Assembly (NCBI GenBank): GCA_035653615.1 | Contig: DASRBN010000038.1 | Location: forward strand, 1-64,000 | From: Ktedonobacteraceae bacterium | GTDB taxonomy: Bacteria; Chloroflexota; Ktedonobacteria; Ktedonobacterales; Ktedonobacteraceae | Direction: 5' to 3' | DNA length: 64,000 nucleotides | Shown here: in pieces, positions 17,874 to 59,028 of the stretch | How positions within the stretch are numbered: position 1 is the first letter of the stretch | How the letters are laid out: the number at the start of each line of letters is the position of its first letter | Made by a program: the position numbers and the translations under genes | Notes under the pieces: model-generated | The model's database searches: none | The model's input: the letters and a program-made list of their open reading frames with translations, nothing else | Told to the model about the DNA's origin: nothing

Positions 17874-18010
17874 TGGTGATTACCCAGAAGTCCGTCGGCT
17901 CAGCTGCATGGAGGGCGCCAGGGATTCTTCGTTGCACTCAGAATGACATGGTGGGGCATGTCATTCTGAGTGCAACGAAGAATCCCTGGCGCGCTTATAG
18001 GTAATCACCA
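17874..18010. repeat. MITE-like element bounded by TGGTGATTACC inverted ends
   Basis: Terminal inverted repeats of 11 bp (17874-17884 and 18000-18010) enclose a perfect 36-bp palindrome arm pair (17915-17950 and 17957-17992) with core ATTCTTCGTTGCACTCAGAA. No coding capacity. A second full element is at 36087-36253 and a half element at 26990-27069. It fills most of the 590-bp gap upstream of the sigma factor gene. Confidence 0.75.
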
Positions 18011-18329: not shown

Positions 18330-18995
18330 ATGGTGCGACCAAACTGGTCAGATGAAGAGTTGGCACGGTTGCTGCAAGAACGCAACACTGAAGCCCTTGA
18401 GACTCTCATTTCTCGTTACTCGCGCGAGGTGTTTTATTTTATTCGCCTGGTACTTGATGGTGTGGGCGTCACCCAGGATGCGGAAGAGTGCGTCAACGAC
18501 CTCTTTGTTGCCGTCTGGCAAGAAATCGAAACCTTCGATTCTGAACGTGGTACGCTACGTACCTGGTTGACGATGCGCGCAAAATATATTGCCCTGGACC
18601 GGCGCCGTCAATTATGTCGCCGCCAGACCCACAATATGCAATCGGCGGACGAAAATCGTCAATGGGCATCATCGGATGGAGGCGGGCGCAAAGGATATGG
18701 GTGGGGAGGATACGACAACGATACCCGCGTGACGCTTCCACCACATCCAGAATTTAGTATGGAACACCTGCTGGAGCAGAGTGAAAGGCGCGAAGAACTG
18801 CGCCTGGCCTTGGCGACGTTGCCAGAGCTTGACCGCTATCTTATTATCCAACGCTATTTTAAATTTGCCAGTACCGAGGAACTGGCAGCGAAAACTGGCC
18901 TCACACGCCACGCTGTCGATACCCGGCTCTGGCGCGCGCGGAAAAGCTTACGCGAAACGCTCAAGGAGCACGCATATGAGTATGAGCGAATTTGA
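18330..18995 (+). CDS. ECF-type RNA polymerase sigma factor
   Basis: 221 residues. Region 2 (LARLLQERNTEALETLISRY, VTQDAEECVNDLFVAVWQEI, GTLRTWLTMRAKYIALDRRR) and region 4 (LATLPELDRYLIIQRYF, STEELAAKTGLTRHAVDTRL) are both clear. The linker of about 45 residues is long and glycine-rich. SD AAGGAG at 18318. The downstream gene starts inside its last codons (ATG 18976), where an anti-sigma factor usually sits. Confidence 0.92.
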   Translation: MVRPNWSDEELARLLQERNTEALETLISRYSREVFYFIRLVLDGVGVTQDAEECVNDLFVAVWQEIETFDSERGTLRTWLTMRAKYIALDRRRQLCRRQTHNMQSADENRQWASSDGGGRKGYGWGGYDNDTRVTLPPHPEFSMEHLLEQSERREELRLALATLPELDRYLIIQRYFKFASTEELAAKTGLTRHAVDTRLWRARKSLRETLKEHAYEYERI

Positions 18996-20184
18996 CACAC
19001 AAATGAATAGGGAAGATGATGATCCCATCTCTTGCTTACTGCGCAAGGAAGCGATTCCGCCTGACTTCAGCGAGGAAGACCTGGCCTTCGCGCAGGAACT
19101 GAATACGCTTTTTTCTGCTGAGCAAGAAGAGCTGCCTCCTCTTTTCGTACAAACATTACTGCAAGCCGAAGACCCACGTTTTCGCCCCGCTGAACATGGC
19201 TTTGAAAAGAAAACAAGCGCGCGTGTCTTTCGTCGCCTTCATTTGCGACGGCGTCTTTTCACTGCGCCGCGCTCCGCAAAGGAAGTCATTAGCAGCAGCA
19301 TACATGGCATCGTCGTCAATCGTTCCTTACTGGCTTTTGCGTGCGTTCTGATGCTCGTGATGCTTTTCACGGTAGCGTTTACGGCGCCATCATTTACTTC
19401 GGGCATGGCCCTTTTACTGCAAGGATCACACAGCGGTGTCTACCAGGTAGAGCATTATCCGACCGGCGTACACAGGCATCATGGTACATATGATTTTGAT
19501 GCGCGCGAGTGGCCCCAGCAAATATCGCTATCACAGGCGATACAACGATTAAGTTTCCCGATGTACTGGCCGCAAATGATTCCACGTGACTACTCCTTGA
19601 CCGCCGTACTTCTGGAGGATACAGGGCAGCAATGGGCGAATGGTCCCATTTTGGATCTGGTTTATACGCTCAACGGCCAGAAACCGGATGCGAATAATCA
19701 GATTATCGTGCGCGAATTCCTGCCCAATGAGGATGTGCTCCAGCTGGTGCAGGAGGGTGCAGCTCACCCGGTAGAAATCGATCAATATGGCGAGGCGAAA
19801 GCAATTTATGTCGATGGGCAATGGGCATTACAAGATGGTCAATCGCTGCCTCAATGGGCCTATGGCGGGCGCAGCGAGCTGATTTACCAGCAGAATAACG
19901 TTGTCTTCTGGATCGTTGGCAACCAGCAAATGGGCGTGAATGAAAAGATGTTGCTGACGATTGCCCAGTCGTTACAGATTTTCCATATCGGCCACCAGAT
20001 GCATATGCTAAGCGATTCACGAGATGCGGCAGGCGTGACGGTGATTGACTGGGCGCCTGATCAGTTTCTGACGGATGTTGTAGTGGTCTTCCAGGGTGAA
20101 AACGGGAATAGCCCCTCGTACATACCGGTTAGCTCGTATCAATTGGTAAAAACGGCGCAAAAAATTGTGGCTACCGGTCACTAA
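18976..20184 (+). CDS. Single-pass membrane protein, putative anti-sigma factor
   Basis: Start set at ATG 18976 (MSMSEFDTQMN) with AAGGAG 7 nt upstream; this overlaps the sigma gene by 20 bp. The 402-residue product has an acidic cytoplasmic part of about 115 residues, one transmembrane helix (SLLAFACVLMLVMLFTVAFT) and a 260-residue outer part with no family I recognise. Position, coupling and topology are those of an anti-sigma factor, but no zinc-binding ZAS motif (HxxxCxxC) is present. It ends TAATG, overlapping the next start codon. Confidence 0.6.
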   Translation: MSMSEFDTQMNREDDDPISCLLRKEAIPPDFSEEDLAFAQELNTLFSAEQEELPPLFVQTLLQAEDPRFRPAEHGFEKKTSARVFRRLHLRRRLFTAPRSAKEVISSSIHGIVVNRSLLAFACVLMLVMLFTVAFTAPSFTSGMALLLQGSHSGVYQVEHYPTGVHRHHGTYDFDAREWPQQISLSQAIQRLSFPMYWPQMIPRDYSLTAVLLEDTGQQWANGPILDLVYTLNGQKPDANNQIIVREFLPNEDVLQLVQEGAAHPVEIDQYGEAKAIYVDGQWALQDGQSLPQWAYGGRSELIYQQNNVVFWIVGNQQMGVNEKMLLTIAQSLQIFHIGHQMHMLSDSRDAAGVTVIDWAPDQFLTDVVVVFQGENGNSPSYIPVSSYQLVKTAQKIVATGH

Positions 20185-21914
20185 TGGCGCGTACAGCAGT
20201 AGGGGCAGTGCTTGCCGCGCCCCCGGTGCGAATGCTGCCGGTGCGTCAAGTGTCATGGTGGGCGCGGCAAGCACTGCCCCTACTGCTGATATGGCTGGTT
20301 GTCGCGTGTAGCACAACTCCATCCATGCCTCCATCGCCTCCTCACGGCTCAACCAGTGGCACGATTATCTTCGCAGACAGAGGATTTCCTGATGCGGTTA
20401 ACCCTTTGTTTTCGGCCTCCGCGGTCGATCTTGAGGTGAGCGCGGCGCTCTGGTCTGCGCCCGTCTATTATGACAACCGGTTTCACATCCAACCCGACCA
20501 GTTGACTGAAGTGCCCCTGCCCGCGAATGGTGGTGTGAAGGATGATGGCAAGACTATCATTATGCACCTGCGTCACGATCTGCGCTGGTCGGATGGCCAG
20601 CCGATCCTGGCAAGCGATTTTCAATACTGGTGGCATCTCGACCAGGACCCAAATACTGGAGCGATCACCATGAGCGGGTACGACCAGATAGCCAGCATCG
20701 ATACGCCTGATAACTTCACCGTGATCCTGCATATGAAACACGCATACGGTCCCTACCTGTCGTATCTGCCATATGCCGCTCCCCAGCACGCCTGGGGCAA
20801 GCTAAAAGACATCGACCTGCAAAACATGACGAGCGTCTACCTGGCCCCCACTGTAACCGATGGCCCCTACATGCTTGCCCACTTCGAGAATGGAAAGAGC
20901 TATACGTTGAAACCAGACCCCTACTACACTTCGACGACATTCTCCGGCCCATTTGTTTCACAACTCATTTACCGCTCTTACAACGATCTTACCGCGCTCA
21001 CCGGCGCAGTCAAGCAGCAGCAGGTTGACATCAGCGAGGGATATATGGAAGATGATCTCTCAAGCCTTGTCCACCTTCCGGCAGGCGTGCAACTACGCGA
21101 AACACCCGCTGCCTCCTATGAGCACCTTGACTTCAACCTGGCTCGTCCTATTTTTCAAGATGTGCGGGTACGGCGCGCAATTCAAATGGCAATCAACAGG
21201 TGCGCCATCATTGAACAGGCGCTGCACATGCCAGATTGTTCGCGCCTTGCAGACCAGGTCGAGCCTCCTCCCTCGCTCGTCTATGATTCCAGCATTGCTT
21301 CGGCCCCTTTTGACCCCCACATGGCAAGGCAGCTACTCGCGCAGGCCGGCTGGCTTTCCGGTCAACATGGTTTACTGTACCGCCATGGCCAGCCGTTTGC
21401 GCTCCGTCTTGTTACAACCGCTTCCAATCCTCTGCGCGCCGCTGCTGCCCGGCGAATCCAACAGGATTTATTGGCAGCCGGCATTTCCATCCAGATTCTG
21501 TATTATCCCCTGAACACCTTCTTTGGCCTCTATAATCAAGGTGGTATCCTGGCAACCGGTGCCTATGACCTGGCCATGTTCGGCTATCAAAATAGCCCGG
21601 AACCCGATGATGAATATGCCGTTTTCGACTCCTCGCAAATACCAACCGCGGATCAACCAGGTCTGGGCAACTACGGCCGCGTCAAGGATCCTATCATCGA
21701 CCAGGCCCTACAACAGGGAAGAAATACAGTAGGCTTTGCCGGTCGCGTAAAGTTCTATCACCAATTCTTAGAGCGCCTTGCAGACCAGGTCTACATTATT
21801 CCTTTGTATACCGGCCTCAATATCATGACCATCAGCGCTACGGTGCGGAACGTCGTCCCCAATCCCAACGTCGTCGAGAACAACTGGAACATCAGTGAAT
21901 GGAGAAAAGGATGA
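20184..21914 (+). CDS. Solute-binding lipoprotein, family 5 (OppA/DppA type), orphan
   Basis: 576 residues with the family-5 layout: GTIIFADRGFPDAVNPLFSAS, YDNRFHIQPDQLTEVPLP, LRWSDGQPILASDFQYWW, and the DVRVRRAIQMAINRCAII motif of peptide or nickel binding proteins. The lipobox is LVVACST, so it is anchored outside the membrane. The ATG at 20184 overlaps the upstream stop (TAATG) and has no SD, which implies translational coupling. Codons 4-35 are made from a perfect 29-bp inverted repeat. No permease or ATPase gene follows, so it may sense a ligand for the sigma/anti-sigma pair rather than feed a transporter. Confidence 0.85.
   Translation: MARTAVGAVLAAPPVRMLPVRQVSWWARQALPLLLIWLVVACSTTPSMPPSPPHGSTSGTIIFADRGFPDAVNPLFSASAVDLEVSAALWSAPVYYDNRFHIQPDQLTEVPLPANGGVKDDGKTIIMHLRHDLRWSDGQPILASDFQYWWHLDQDPNTGAITMSGYDQIASIDTPDNFTVILHMKHAYGPYLSYLPYAAPQHAWGKLKDIDLQNMTSVYLAPTVTDGPYMLAHFENGKSYTLKPDPYYTSTTFSGPFVSQLIYRSYNDLTALTGAVKQQQVDISEGYMEDDLSSLVHLPAGVQLRETPAASYEHLDFNLARPIFQDVRVRRAIQMAINRCAIIEQALHMPDCSRLADQVEPPPSLVYDSSIASAPFDPHMARQLLAQAGWLSGQHGLLYRHGQPFALRLVTTASNPLRAAAARRIQQDLLAAGISIQILYYPLNTFFGLYNQGGILATGAYDLAMFGYQNSPEPDDEYAVFDSSQIPTADQPGLGNYGRVKDPIIDQALQQGRNTVGFAGRVKFYHQFLERLADQVYIIPLYTGLNIMTISATVRNVVPNPNVVENNWNISEWRKG
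20194..20288. repeat. 29-bp inverted repeat inside the lipoprotein signal region
   Basis: Arms 20194-20222 and 20260-20288 are perfectly complementary (CAGCAGTAGGGGC ... GCCCCTACTGCTG), with a 37-nt loop. The arm resembles 35987-36022. It encodes residues 4-35 of the binding protein. Confidence 0.85.
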
Positions 21915-25250: not shown

Positions 25251-25336
25251 TGTCATTCTGAGCGCAGCGAAGAATCCGAAGCACGCACCTGATCAATTTA
25301 GCTCATGTGAGATTCTTCGCTGCGCTCAGAATGACA
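25251..25336. repeat. Palindromic repeat pair (ATTCTTCGCT family)
   Basis: Perfect 26-bp inverted arms 25251-25276 and 25311-25336 (GATTCTTCGCTGCGCTCAGA..), 34-nt loop. It lies 20 bp after the permease stop and may end or protect that transcript. Confidence 0.8.
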
Positions 25337-33561: not shown

Positions 33562-33574
33562 GCTGGTTGATAAA

Positions 33575-33627
33575 TATAAAAAGAGGTAAGCCAGCAAGTG
33601 TTGTATGCTGGCTTACCTCTTTTTATA
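33575..33627. terminator. Perfect 22-bp bidirectional terminator
   Basis: Arms 33575-33596 and 33606-33627 are fully complementary (TATAAAAAGAGGTAAGCCAG..), loop of 9 nt, with T-runs on both strands. It ends the glycosyltransferase transcript on the minus strand. Confidence 0.9.
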
Positions 33628-33632
33628 TCCTG

Positions 33633-36086: not shown

Positions 36087-36253
36087 CTGGTGATTTCGCA
36101 GAAGTCCGCAAGCTCAGACAAGGTGGCTCGGCTGAATGAAAGGCGGGCAGAGATTCTTCGCTTCACTCAGAATGACATGATGAAGGACCGTCCTTCATCA
36201 TGTCATTCTGAGTGAAGCGAAGAATCTCTGCCCCACTTCTGGAGAATCACCTG
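36087..36253. repeat. MITE-like element bounded by GGTGATT inverted ends (second copy)
   Basis: Ends CTGGTGATT and AATCACCTG; inside is a perfect 43-bp arm pair (36145-36187 and 36191-36233) with a 3-nt loop and core GATTCTTCGCTTCACTCAGA. Same build as 17874-18010, including CAGAAGTCCG near the left end. Non-coding. Confidence 0.8.
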
Positions 36254-48177: not shown

Positions 48178-48278
48178 ACGCACGTTGCTATGCTAAACTG
48201 AGGCAACGAGAAATATGATATGGTCTGTACGGACATATATAATGAATTTTTACCAGCAAAATCGGTAAGTACCCTGGC

Positions 48279-48352
48279 CATGTCATTCTGAGTGAAGCGA
48301 AGAATCTCTAGCACGATGGACACGGATTCTTCGCTTCACTCAGAATGACATG
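48279..48352. repeat. Palindromic repeat pair (ATTCTTCGCT family)
   Basis: Perfect 28-bp arms 48279-48306 and 48325-48352. Outside them GCAAAATCGGTAA and TAACCGGTTTTGC form an imperfect outer inverted repeat (about 48256-48382), so the whole looks like a small element. It lies between argC and the dehydrogenase gene. Confidence 0.8.
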
Positions 48353-48430
48353 CCCTGAGCCACTCGGATAACCGGTTTTGCTCGTGAAAGTTTATCATCA
48401 GGAAGCAAAGAAAAAGGTCAGGTTACTATC

Positions 48431-49886: not shown

Positions 49887-50450
49887 ATGGTAATTGATGA
49901 AATCCTGGCGCATAACGAGCAGTTCCTGCGCCAGCCACCGCTGCCCATTATCGGACACGCGCCCCGCAAACATATGGCCGTTGTAACCTGTATGGATTGC
50001 CGGTTGGTGAACATGTTTGAGCAGGCGCTTGGACTGCAACGCGGCGACGTACTCGAACTGCGTACCGCTGGAGCGACCATCTCCGAACCTGAGCGCGAGG
50101 GAGGAGCGAGTGACTTGATTCGCTCGCTTGCTGGCGGCATCTATTTGCTGGGGGTGCGCGAAGTGGCCGTAATCGGTCATACAAACTGCGGCCTGGCGAA
50201 TGCGAACTCTGATGCTGTGATAGCGTCGATGCAGGCATTGGGTGTCGATCCGCAACGATTGATCGAGCAGGAGAGCCTGGGGAACGTCCAGGGCCTGGTG
50301 CGCTGGCTCGGCGCATTTTCCGACGTGCATGTGAATGTTGGCGAAGTGGTCAAGGTTATTCGCAACAGCCCTTACCTGCCCAGGATTCCGGTGCATGGCC
50401 TGGTAATCAATATCGAAACCGGCAAATTAGAAATGGTCGATAGAGGGTAA
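49887..50450 (+). CDS. Beta-class carbonic anhydrase
   Basis: 187 residues from ATG 49887 (MVIDEILAHNEQFL), one base after the icd stop; GGGGGAATAAG provides the binding site. Zinc ligands and dyad: VVTCMDCRLVNM (Cys and the Asp-Arg pair) and IGHTNCGLAN (His, Cys). It interconverts CO2 and bicarbonate in the cytoplasm. Being coupled to isocitrate dehydrogenase, which releases CO2, it may recapture or balance that CO2; this is inference from the operon. Confidence 0.93.
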   Translation: MVIDEILAHNEQFLRQPPLPIIGHAPRKHMAVVTCMDCRLVNMFEQALGLQRGDVLELRTAGATISEPEREGGASDLIRSLAGGIYLLGVREVAVIGHTNCGLANANSDAVIASMQALGVDPQRLIEQESLGNVQGLVRWLGAFSDVHVNVGEVVKVIRNSPYLPRIPVHGLVINIETGKLEMVDRG

Positions 50451-50457
50451 ATAAGGT

Positions 50458-50531
50458 AAACAAGAAGAGTTCAGCGCCGGCTGGCTTCCGCGCGGAAGCC
50501 AGCCGGCGCTGAACTCTTCTTGTTTTTTTTT
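50458..50531. terminator. Very strong terminator between convergent genes
   Basis: A perfect 32-bp stem (50458-50489 with 50494-50525, core CAGCGCCGGCTGGCTTCC) with a GCGC loop runs into a T-tract on +. It ends the icd/carbonic anhydrase transcript. Confidence 0.92.
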
Positions 50532-50532
50532 A

Positions 50533-51942
50533 TTACATCGTTGTCCAGCCAACAATCGACAACTGCGTGCCGTCCGAGATGGACGCGAATGTAGTTGGCG
50601 TTCCACCGTTCAGCGCACCGAACAGCAGCGATTGCGTTTTACCGTTAGCGCTGCTATGTTGCAGGGCGTACAGGTTTCCATCGCGAGAAACATTTGACCA
50701 GGGATACTGCGAGAACATGTTGAAATTGCTCGGCCCCCCGGAAACTCCCGCGCCATCGCTGGTCAGGCGTGCCAGACCACTGCCGTCGGTATTGACTTTC
50801 CACAACCCGTTATTGCTGGTATCGGCGTTTCCGGTAAAAGAGGCGTTTTCAACCAGGAACAAGAGCGTGGTCTTGCTGATGGCCCGCACGGCGGTAATAG
50901 CCATGTTCGCGTTGGTGAAAAAGGTATGCGGTGAGCCACCGCTGGCCGCGCGCACGTTAATCATGCTGGGGCCGCGCTGGTCGCCGATACCGGGGCCATT
51001 TGGATTCGGGTCGGTCGTGCATTCGGCGGTATACAATTGCGTCCCATCATAGCTGCTGTCGGAGTTCCAGCAGAACGTATTGGTAGGAGTGACGACTACC
51101 GGCAGATTTTGCGGGTTCTGATTGGCCCCTTTGCTGGTATCGAGCAGGTAGAGAGCGCCCGAAGGAGCATCTACCTGAGGCCCCAGCAGGTACACCCTTG
51201 TCGTATCCAGCCAGGTCAGGATCGGATAATCAACGCCTGTTCCGCTCATAAAGATGTCCGCCTGCACGCTACCGTTCTGTGCATTCAGCACATAAACACC
51301 GCTGCCACTGCTGGTATAGCTATCAAAAACGATGAGCTTCTGATCGGAAGACCACTGCGCATCATGCAAGGCGCTACCGGTATTGGCGCCGTTGGAGGGT
51401 GGCGCGGCACAATACAACGTTTGTAACCCCTGACCATCCATGCGCACCAGTTGCAACTTCGCCTGACCGGATGCAATGGCGACAAAGAGAATCCATTGTC
51501 CATCCGTCGAAACCTGGGCCTCGCTGATTTCTGTCCTGGGAAGGTTGAGAATCTCAGTTTTACTACCGGTCGTGACATCATAGCGCTTCAACGTGGCAAG
51601 TGTAGGCGCATCCGCCGGCCCCTGATTGACAATATAGACGATATTCTGGTCGCTGCCCAGCGCCAATGGCGCAAGCACGGCCGCTCGTCCGCCGCCCGAA
51701 GCGGGACAACTGGTCTGTGTTGCCGGCACCGGAGCCGTGGTAGAAACCGTTCCGGGATTTCCATTCCCATTTCCCTTTGGGGTGGGAGTAGAAGTCTTTC
51801 CTGCCGGTGTTGGGTTTACAGTCGGTGTCGTGCCACCTCCGGGTGTCGAACCTGTGCCCGGTGATCCACAGGCCACGACCAGCAACGCGATACAGCACAA
51901 GAAGAGAGCAATGAGCATTGGATGAGAACGCATACGATACAT
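50533..51942 (-). CDS. Lipoprotein with TolB-like beta-propeller
   Basis: 469 residues. Signal peptide with lipobox (LIALFLCCIALLVVACGS), a Thr/Pro/Gly-rich linker of about 70 residues, then WD40/TolB-like blades: VSTDGQWILFVAIASGQAKL, DAQWSSDQKLIVFDSYTSSG, TNGLWKVNTDGSGLARLTSD and SRDGNLYALQHSSANGKTQS. Such propellers outside the membrane bind partners or cell-wall components; no enzyme motif is seen. GAAAGGA precedes ATG 51942. The TnpB element lies just upstream, so its promoter may be altered. Confidence 0.8.
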   Translation of the reverse strand: MYRMRSHPMLIALFLCCIALLVVACGSPGTGSTPGGGTTPTVNPTPAGKTSTPTPKGNGNGNPGTVSTTAPVPATQTSCPASGGGRAAVLAPLALGSDQNIVYIVNQGPADAPTLATLKRYDVTTGSKTEILNLPRTEISEAQVSTDGQWILFVAIASGQAKLQLVRMDGQGLQTLYCAAPPSNGANTGSALHDAQWSSDQKLIVFDSYTSSGSGVYVLNAQNGSVQADIFMSGTGVDYPILTWLDTTRVYLLGPQVDAPSGALYLLDTSKGANQNPQNLPVVVTPTNTFCWNSDSSYDGTQLYTAECTTDPNPNGPGIGDQRGPSMINVRAASGGSPHTFFTNANMAITAVRAISKTTLLFLVENASFTGNADTSNNGLWKVNTDGSGLARLTSDGAGVSGGPSNFNMFSQYPWSNVSRDGNLYALQHSSANGKTQSLLFGALNGGTPTTFASISDGTQLSIVGWTTM

Positions 51943-58045: not shown

Positions 58046-58094
58046 TATGTATTGTTCTCCACTACGGTAGAAATTTTTTATTATGCATTCGTAG

Positions 58095-58170
58095 GGATTC
58101 TTCGCTGCGCTCAGAATGACAGGCCTGCGGCATGCCATAGGCCTGTCATTCTGAGCGCAGCGAAGAATCC
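58095..58170. repeat. Palindromic repeat pair overlapping the hldE2 3' end
   Basis: Perfect 32-bp arms 58095-58126 and 58139-58170 (GGATTCTTCGCTGCGCTCAG..). The right arm encodes the last residues of the nucleotidyltransferase; the left lies before murJ. Confidence 0.85.
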
Positions 58171-58703
58171 TTATAACGATTGGACGAGGGAAGTTGCTTG
58201 ATGGTTGCGATTAATTTTGTCGTGGAATGATCTGGTAGATAGGCGATCAAACGCACAACTCCCCCGTATTGCTGCACCACTTTTGCCTCAGGCAAACGGC
58301 CGGTATCCGGCACGCCGCTCTGTTCCATGCCATAATCGCCGCCCTTGACGTAGATCGCGGGTCGCAATAGTGCGAGCAATTCGCTGGCCGTCGGTTCGCT
58401 AAAGATCGTCACATAGTCTATACACGTTAAAGCTGCCAGTATTTCGGCACGTTCCTCTTCTGGTACCAGGGGTCTACCCGGTCCCTTGAGCACGCGGGTG
58501 CTGGCATCACTGTTCAGTCCCACAATGAGAAAATCCCCCAGGTCGCGCGCCTCTTCAAGATAGCGCACGTGCCCCAGGTGCAGGAGATCGAAGCAGCCGT
58601 TCGTGAAGACGCCTCGTTCGCCCACTTCCTGCCTGCGCCGCACTTCAGCAGCAATTTCCGGCCGGGCGAGTATTTTTTGACGGGCAATATGTGCCTGGTT
58701 CAC
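58146..58703 (-). CDS. rfaE2: D-glycero-beta-D-manno-heptose 1-phosphate adenylyltransferase
   Basis: 185 residues of the nucleotidyltransferase superfamily: FTNGCFDLLHLGHVRYLEEA with the HxGH motif, IVGLNSDASTRVLKGPGRPL and IYVKGGDYGMEQ. It activates heptose 1-phosphate with ATP (or CTP), as the C-terminal half of HldE does. The kinase half is encoded at 62925-63941. The last residues, YKDSSLRSE, and the stop codon come from the palindrome at 58139-58170, so the native end has been replaced. Heptose here would serve a surface glycan, not lipopolysaccharide, if the host is a monoderm. Confidence 0.9.
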   Translation of the reverse strand: MNQAHIARQKILARPEIAAEVRRRQEVGERGVFTNGCFDLLHLGHVRYLEEARDLGDFLIVGLNSDASTRVLKGPGRPLVPEEERAEILAALTCIDYVTIFSEPTASELLALLRPAIYVKGGDYGMEQSGVPDTGRLPEAKVVQQYGGVVRLIAYLPDHSTTKLIATIKQLPSSNRYKDSSLRSE

Positions 58704-58784: not shown

Positions 58785-58909
58785 GAGATTCTCCGCTTCA
58801 CTCAGAATGACTTGCCCTTGTGCTGTAGTTCAAACAAGAGATTCTTCGCTTCGCTCAGAATGACACGCTTGCGTGCAAGCGTGTCATTCTGAGCGAAGCG
58901 AAGAATCTC
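58785..58909. repeat. Cluster of ATTCTTCGCT repeats
   Basis: One single arm (58785-58814) and one perfect 35-bp inverted pair (58838-58872 with 58875-58909) with a 2-nt loop. The cluster is flanked by a diverged 25-bp direct repeat (58761-58785 and 58937-58961, CTTTGTTG..ATTT). It fills the gap upstream of the PAS operon promoter. Confidence 0.8.
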
Positions 58910-59028
58910 TCGCGCACTCCTGGGTGCTCACCAGATGCCACTTTGTTGCATTTAAAATCGGGTGCTGGTGACATCCACACTAGCAGCTTGCTACATGTCA
59001 GATGAATATATGACTATTCTCCCCGCTA

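Follow-up and report, generated by a model that had tools for sequence, protein, structure and literature searches.

A predicted binding-protein gene of a Ktedonobacteraceae bacterium opens with a long perfect palindrome. What is this palindrome, and how can a protein be made through it? We addressed these questions in a stretch of 64,000 nucleotides (hereafter, the window), to which coordinates refer. The gene and its neighbors are arranged as follows:

18330–18995, + strand: sigma-70 family factor with regions 2 and 4.
18781–20184, + strand: upstream ORF in its longest form, called a putative anti-sigma factor from its position alone, with a stop that overlaps ATG 20184.
20184–21914, + strand: gene for a family-5 extracellular solute-binding lipoprotein of 576 aa, with the lipobox Cys codon at 20307–20309.

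The lipoprotein belongs to SBP_bac_5 (Pfam PF00496, 1.2e-55), and no Pfam or NCBIfam family was found in the upstream ORF. ATG 20184 and the upstream TAA have one base in common (TAATG), confirming the junction noted in the first-pass annotation. The palindrome begins a few codons further on and is composed of the following parts:

20194–20222, + strand: left arm of the perfect inverted repeat, codons 4–13 if the start is 20184.
20194–20198, + strand: CAGCA, complementary to TGCTG 20284–20288; a copy-specific extension outside GTAG...CTAC.
20199–20222, + strand: REP-like unit with GTAG at its outer (5') end.
20223–20259, + strand: 37-nt spacer with alternative in-frame starts GTG 20226, ATG 20232, GTG 20241 and GTG 20250.
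20260–20288, + strand: right arm, encoding ARQALPLLL (part of the signal peptide).
20260–20283, − strand: second REP-like unit, inverted and identical to the first.

The earlier description of a perfect 29-bp inverted repeat at residues 4–35 of the binding protein held when it was measured: arms 20194–20222 and 20260–20288 are complementary at 29 of 29 nt (100%), lie in frame, and are separated by 37 nt. From base composition, about 3e-11 such repeats would be expected per 64 kb. The RNA of 20194–20288 had a folding energy of −76.1 kcal/mol (z −10.5 versus 200 shuffles); upon removal of the right arm, the stability of the RNA around the start did not exceed that of shuffles. We rejected a terminator reading of the repeat, which was not reported by a scan for stems of at least 5 pairs with loops of 3–8 and has no T-run 3' of it. 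A promoter scan gave no hits. A 141-bp query with the whole element against the bacterium's own genome matched the window alone, on both strands. Other palindromes do occur in the window. Further long inverted repeats were seen at 33574–33628 and 50447–50536 (23 bp perfect and 45 bp at 89%), and a second dispersed family, TGTCATTCTGAGYGMAGCGAAGAATC and its variants, forms inverted pairs at six places:

17912–17995, 25251–25336, 36140–36238, 48276–48355, 58092–58173 and 58785–58910: inverted pairs of the TGTCATTCTGAGYGMAGCGAAGAATC family.

We interpret the repeat as probably two GTAG-tagged repetitive extragenic palindromes (REPs) joined as an inverted, head-head dimer, inserted at the gene junction and now translated. 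The first-pass annotation had not recognized this membership in a dispersed repeat family. GTAG opens both units at their outer ends, at 20199 on the + strand and 20283 on the − strand, and the units are inverted around a spacer whose 37 nt fall inside the 20–100 bp range of GTAG REP dimers. The focal repeat fits the definition of a head-head homodimer in PMC3733652, which places GTAG outside and gives a spacer of 20–100 bp. We then searched the own genome (6.59 Mb in 44 contigs, 95% complete). Inverted pairs of the form GTAGGGRC...GYCCCTAC were present at 42 places, versus 2 in a reversed control, and single GTAGGGGCRNNGCTTG sites, like the focal half-arm, numbered 229 versus 100 in the control. 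A covariance model of the unit gave at least 151 matches at E<=10, a lower bound with 150 of 5243 candidates scored. The units have a common plan of GTAG, stem, CTTGY-like loop and stem. In a chosen set of 16 units, outside which the focal unit lies, 94.5% of cells were paired, and both sides had changed in 23 cells, compared with 8.8 in shuffles and a maximum of 6 when the partner was slid. Alignment A4 left out the 24-nt units, the focal one included, because of misalignment.

Several results count against the REP-dimer reading, including the failure to find a RAYT in the own genome (below) and the rarity of the focal subtype there. The focal arm was absent among the covariance-model matches listed, and, taken alone with DNA parameters, it reached only −4.8 kcal/mol (z −0.66) in a hairpin unlike that of the family. 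The focal arm is thus a weak case of the family hairpin plan. Its exact subtype, GTAGGGGCNNNGCTTGCn(1-3)CGCCC, had three matches in the own genome, two of which are the focal dimer itself, and 53 in the related genome G013, versus none in a reversed control.

Leaving out one of the 42 inverted-pair places (C18:77784), we analyzed 41 dimers. In a crude scan, 12 of the 40 dimers other than the focal one overlapped a coding-like ORF, many just at the ORF end. The GTAG REP dimers of this genome are therefore mostly extragenic, and the focal dimer is an exception. Copy-specific outer palindromes of 5–18 bp enclosed REP-type or related palindromes in 7 of the 41 copies, against a mean of 0.26 when shuffled; these include L078, L085, L097 and L069 as well as window 20194–20288, and L097 resembles a terminator hairpin with an element in its loop. 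We considered such complementarity outside GTAG...CTAC as a new feature and dropped this claim, since REP dimers lying inside palindromes are already described in PMC3733652.

How such a dimer might have moved was approached through RAYT (TnpAREP) genes. None was found in the own genome, 95% complete, where the sole Y1 transposase is an IS200/IS605 TnpA. An ordinary IS200/IS605 origin of the element was rejected because this single Y1 gene adjoins TnpB and was scored as IS200; the presence of one REP-like copy nearby proves nothing on origin. In G013, a RAYT-like protein (L150) has GTAGGGGCGAGGCTTGCCCTCGCCC or GTAGGGGCGACCCTTGCGGTCGCCC on both flanks; its best NCBIfam model is REP_Tyr_transpos NF047646, at 64.2 bits, below the cut-off of 80. 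A similar protein in G057 (L148), another genome of the phylum, scored 61.7 bits to NF047646 (cut-off 80), with several such repeats on one side, the flank that was examined. G057 itself contained 166 inverted pairs; of the pairs listed, most belong to the GTAGGGGCGAAGCATCGCCC type. PMC3733652 gives RAYT mobilization of REPs as a hypothesis and the association as frequent, so a RAYT in the same genome is not a strict criterion.

CT or CA stood immediately 5' of GTAG at 45 of 62 ends (CT 37, CA 8) of 31 REP-type dimers, compared with about 8 of 62 expected from a background of 12.6%, the copies being related and hence not independent. For this count and the frame count below, 10 of the 41 dimers had been removed by eye as not REP-type (L076, L091, L094 and L096–L102). 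Both ends of the focal dimer carry CA. Cleavage by TnpAREP is reported at CT and, for one enzyme, at CA as well (PMC8266576). Because RAYT-like genes are flanked by such repeats in relatives and because of the CT/CA ends, the focal element looks like the product of a TnpAREP-like enzyme now absent from, or undetected in, the draft genome.

We then compared the junction with orthologous loci. The order sigma factor, putative anti-sigma gene, binding protein was found in 8 of the 12 loci examined with flanks (L104, L105 and L107–L112), and the sigma factor was 84–86% identical in seven Ktedonobacterales orthologous loci and 50% in L112. Spacing between the upstream stop and the binding-protein start ranged from a 4-nt overlap (L105) to hundreds of bases. 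In alignments and junction sequences of the orthologues, no REP dimer was found. In three Ktedonobacter loci (L108, L109 and L110), the same gene junction is filled by tandem GC-rich repeats of another kind. The best-scoring orthologue, in G013, is 60% identical; no closer relative was found, so an empty site cannot be read. True conservation in an alignment of nine sequences begins at the lipobox Cys, C42; the one invariant position before it, a Met, was imposed by the choice of starts. The first-pass annotation had named conserved residues upstream of LLLIWLVVACS in orthologues as evidence that would speak against it, and the alignment held none but this imposed Met.

The leader of the predicted lipoprotein appears complete, with an n-region, a hydrophobic core and a lipobox Cys all present. 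The lipobox reads VVA-C, and its Cys, residue 42, is invariant in 9 of 9 aligned sequences. The hydrophobic stretch ALPLLLIWLVVA has 12 residues with a mean hydropathy of 2.75, similar to 13 residues and 2.82 in L105 and 16 residues and 2.56 in L108; the figure for L107 was discounted, as an Asn interrupts the stretch. ATG, GTG and TTG are all absent between the right arm, which ends at 20288, and the Cys codon at 20307, and only the six residues IWLVVA separate the arm from the Cys. For a usable signal peptide, a common start codon must therefore be located at or before GTG 20250, which brings the right arm into the coding sequence. Export of the protein as a lipoprotein would thus require that this arm encode a portion of the signal peptide. 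Accordingly, part of the repeat is very probably translated within the lipoprotein export signal. The proposal that the signal-peptide region is built from the repeat was thus borne out, the right arm supplying ARQALPLLL before IWLVVA-Cys. Its further suggestions, that the hairpin affects translation or that the repeat displaced an older start, stay conjectural.

The start codon used decides whether the left arm is translated as well. In the likeliest reading, the inserted REP dimer is translated from ATG 20184: ribosomes terminating the upstream gene at TAA would reinitiate at this overlapping ATG and pass through the entire dimer, melting the stem as they elongate. With a stem starting 10 nt further on, free 30S should load poorly at this ATG. 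A long unconserved n-region would then come from the left arm and spacer, and the right arm would contribute the final positive charge and roughly half of the hydrophobic core. The whole leader would finally be cut away by signal peptidase II, which would explain why the repeat is tolerated. Counting against this explanation, neither 85 bp nor 95 bp is a multiple of three, so that an older reading frame beginning at ATG 20184 would have been put out of register by a clean insertion. In the own genome, a REP dimer is on average open in 3.5 of its 6 frames, and the focal dimer in 3, so in-frame passage requires no special selection.

The same REP dimer could instead carry the start in its spacer, at ATG 20232 or at GTG 20226, 20241 or 20250, with the left arm as leader, the start in the 37-nt loop and the right arm alone coding. 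This arrangement would make MLPVRQVSWWARQALPLLLIWLVVAC a signal peptide of ordinary length, and according to PMC3733652 many N-terminal REPs lie outside the real gene, with translation beginning downstream. The TAATG overlap favors ATG 20184 and signal-peptide length favors ATG 20232. Several points count against a spacer start: a start in the loop would sit on a very stable hairpin; among the eight orthologous loci that have the upstream gene, one (L105) likewise shows a coupled start overlapping the stop; and no Shine-Dalgarno-like sequence was seen by eye before the spacer starts, nor is there one before ATG 20184. We regard a spacer start as less likely than a start at ATG 20184.

A regulatory role for the repeat is possible. 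Counted from the A of the ATG, which is the last base of TAA, the repeat starts at 10 nt and its GTAG at 15 nt; an effect on the upstream gene is thus possible. It is unlikely, in our estimate, that the REP dimer has been co-opted twice, its right arm serving as a working half of the lipoprotein signal peptide and its hairpin tying lipoprotein synthesis to translation of the upstream putative anti-sigma gene. Slightly less likely still is a selected control device, compatible with either start, in which the hairpin would stall ribosomes after the upstream stop, lower the putative anti-sigma protein and make the lipoprotein depend on coupled translation. The fold is very stable, and in E. coli translation is reportedly lowered by REPs that lie no more than 15 nt from a stop (Liang et al. 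2015, cited in PMC12306157), consistent with such a device; however, the arrangement was seen in one genome alone, with the REP dimer absent from orthologous junctions.

Damage by the insertion, leaving a decaying lipoprotein gene, would fit its place at the gene start and a leader that is unusually long (41 residues) if read from ATG 20184, but we consider it very improbable, since the 576-aa ORF with its Pfam match is intact and the mature part aligns end to end with orthologues at 48–59% identity. A fold-back artefact of sequencing or assembly, conceivable in a draft of 44 contigs, can be dismissed almost entirely, as it would duplicate local sequence, whereas the arms open with GTAG and match a family found elsewhere in the own and other genomes.

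The reading as a translated REP dimer is accompanied by two other in-frame cases in the own genome. In a FemAB-family gene (L063:836-2008), a REP dimer codes for 23 residues (148–170); four of six orthologues are without most of these residues and two of six have unrelated residues there, a comparison that is not perfectly clean. A third dimer passes in frame through the C-terminal tail of an AMP-binding/carrier protein (L088).

PMC3733652 already describes GTAG REPs in Chloroflexi, together with head-head dimers, intragenic dimers coding for 20–30 residues, N-terminal cases and dimers lying inside small palindromes. With the GTAG superfamily dimers of that paper (REPINs), the focal repeat shares the outer GTAG, the inverted homodimer, the spacer range and dispersed copies; it differs in its 24-nt units with a weak hairpin of their own, in a subtype rare in its genome, and in that no RAYT was found there. 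PMC3733652 explains N-terminal REPs largely by wrongly called starts; by contrast, the focal right arm must be coding if the gene works. Rickettsia palindromic elements are likewise inserted in frame in protein genes (PMC3733652), in another phylum, and are likened here by description alone. Those E. coli REPs that follow stop codons also form stable hairpins at most 15 nt from the stop, whereas the focal hairpin doubles as the start of the next coding sequence. The Coxiella QMITE elements (PMC5896051) are short mobile elements overlapping ORFs, one with a GTAG REP, and differ as MITEs of 150–400 bp with direct repeats. IS605 stem-loops at Borrelia lipoprotein genes (PMC2775950) lie at 3' ends, a different case. 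Thus, relative to what PMC3733652 describes, the kind of element is known, including its intragenic and N-terminal dimers, and the twist is an arm within a lipoprotein signal peptide. Among the literature matches listed, we found no earlier example in which a REP arm forms a lipoprotein signal peptide, nor, judging by titles, any paper whose main subject is GTAG REPs in Ktedonobacterales.

Signal peptides are among the protein parts freest to vary, and may therefore be where such insertions survive. With no ATG, GTG or TTG beyond its second arm, the small mobile palindrome of the present locus has to be coding for the gene to work, which makes it a clean case. These findings also place GTAG REPs and a linked RAYT-like gene in the Ktedonobacterales.
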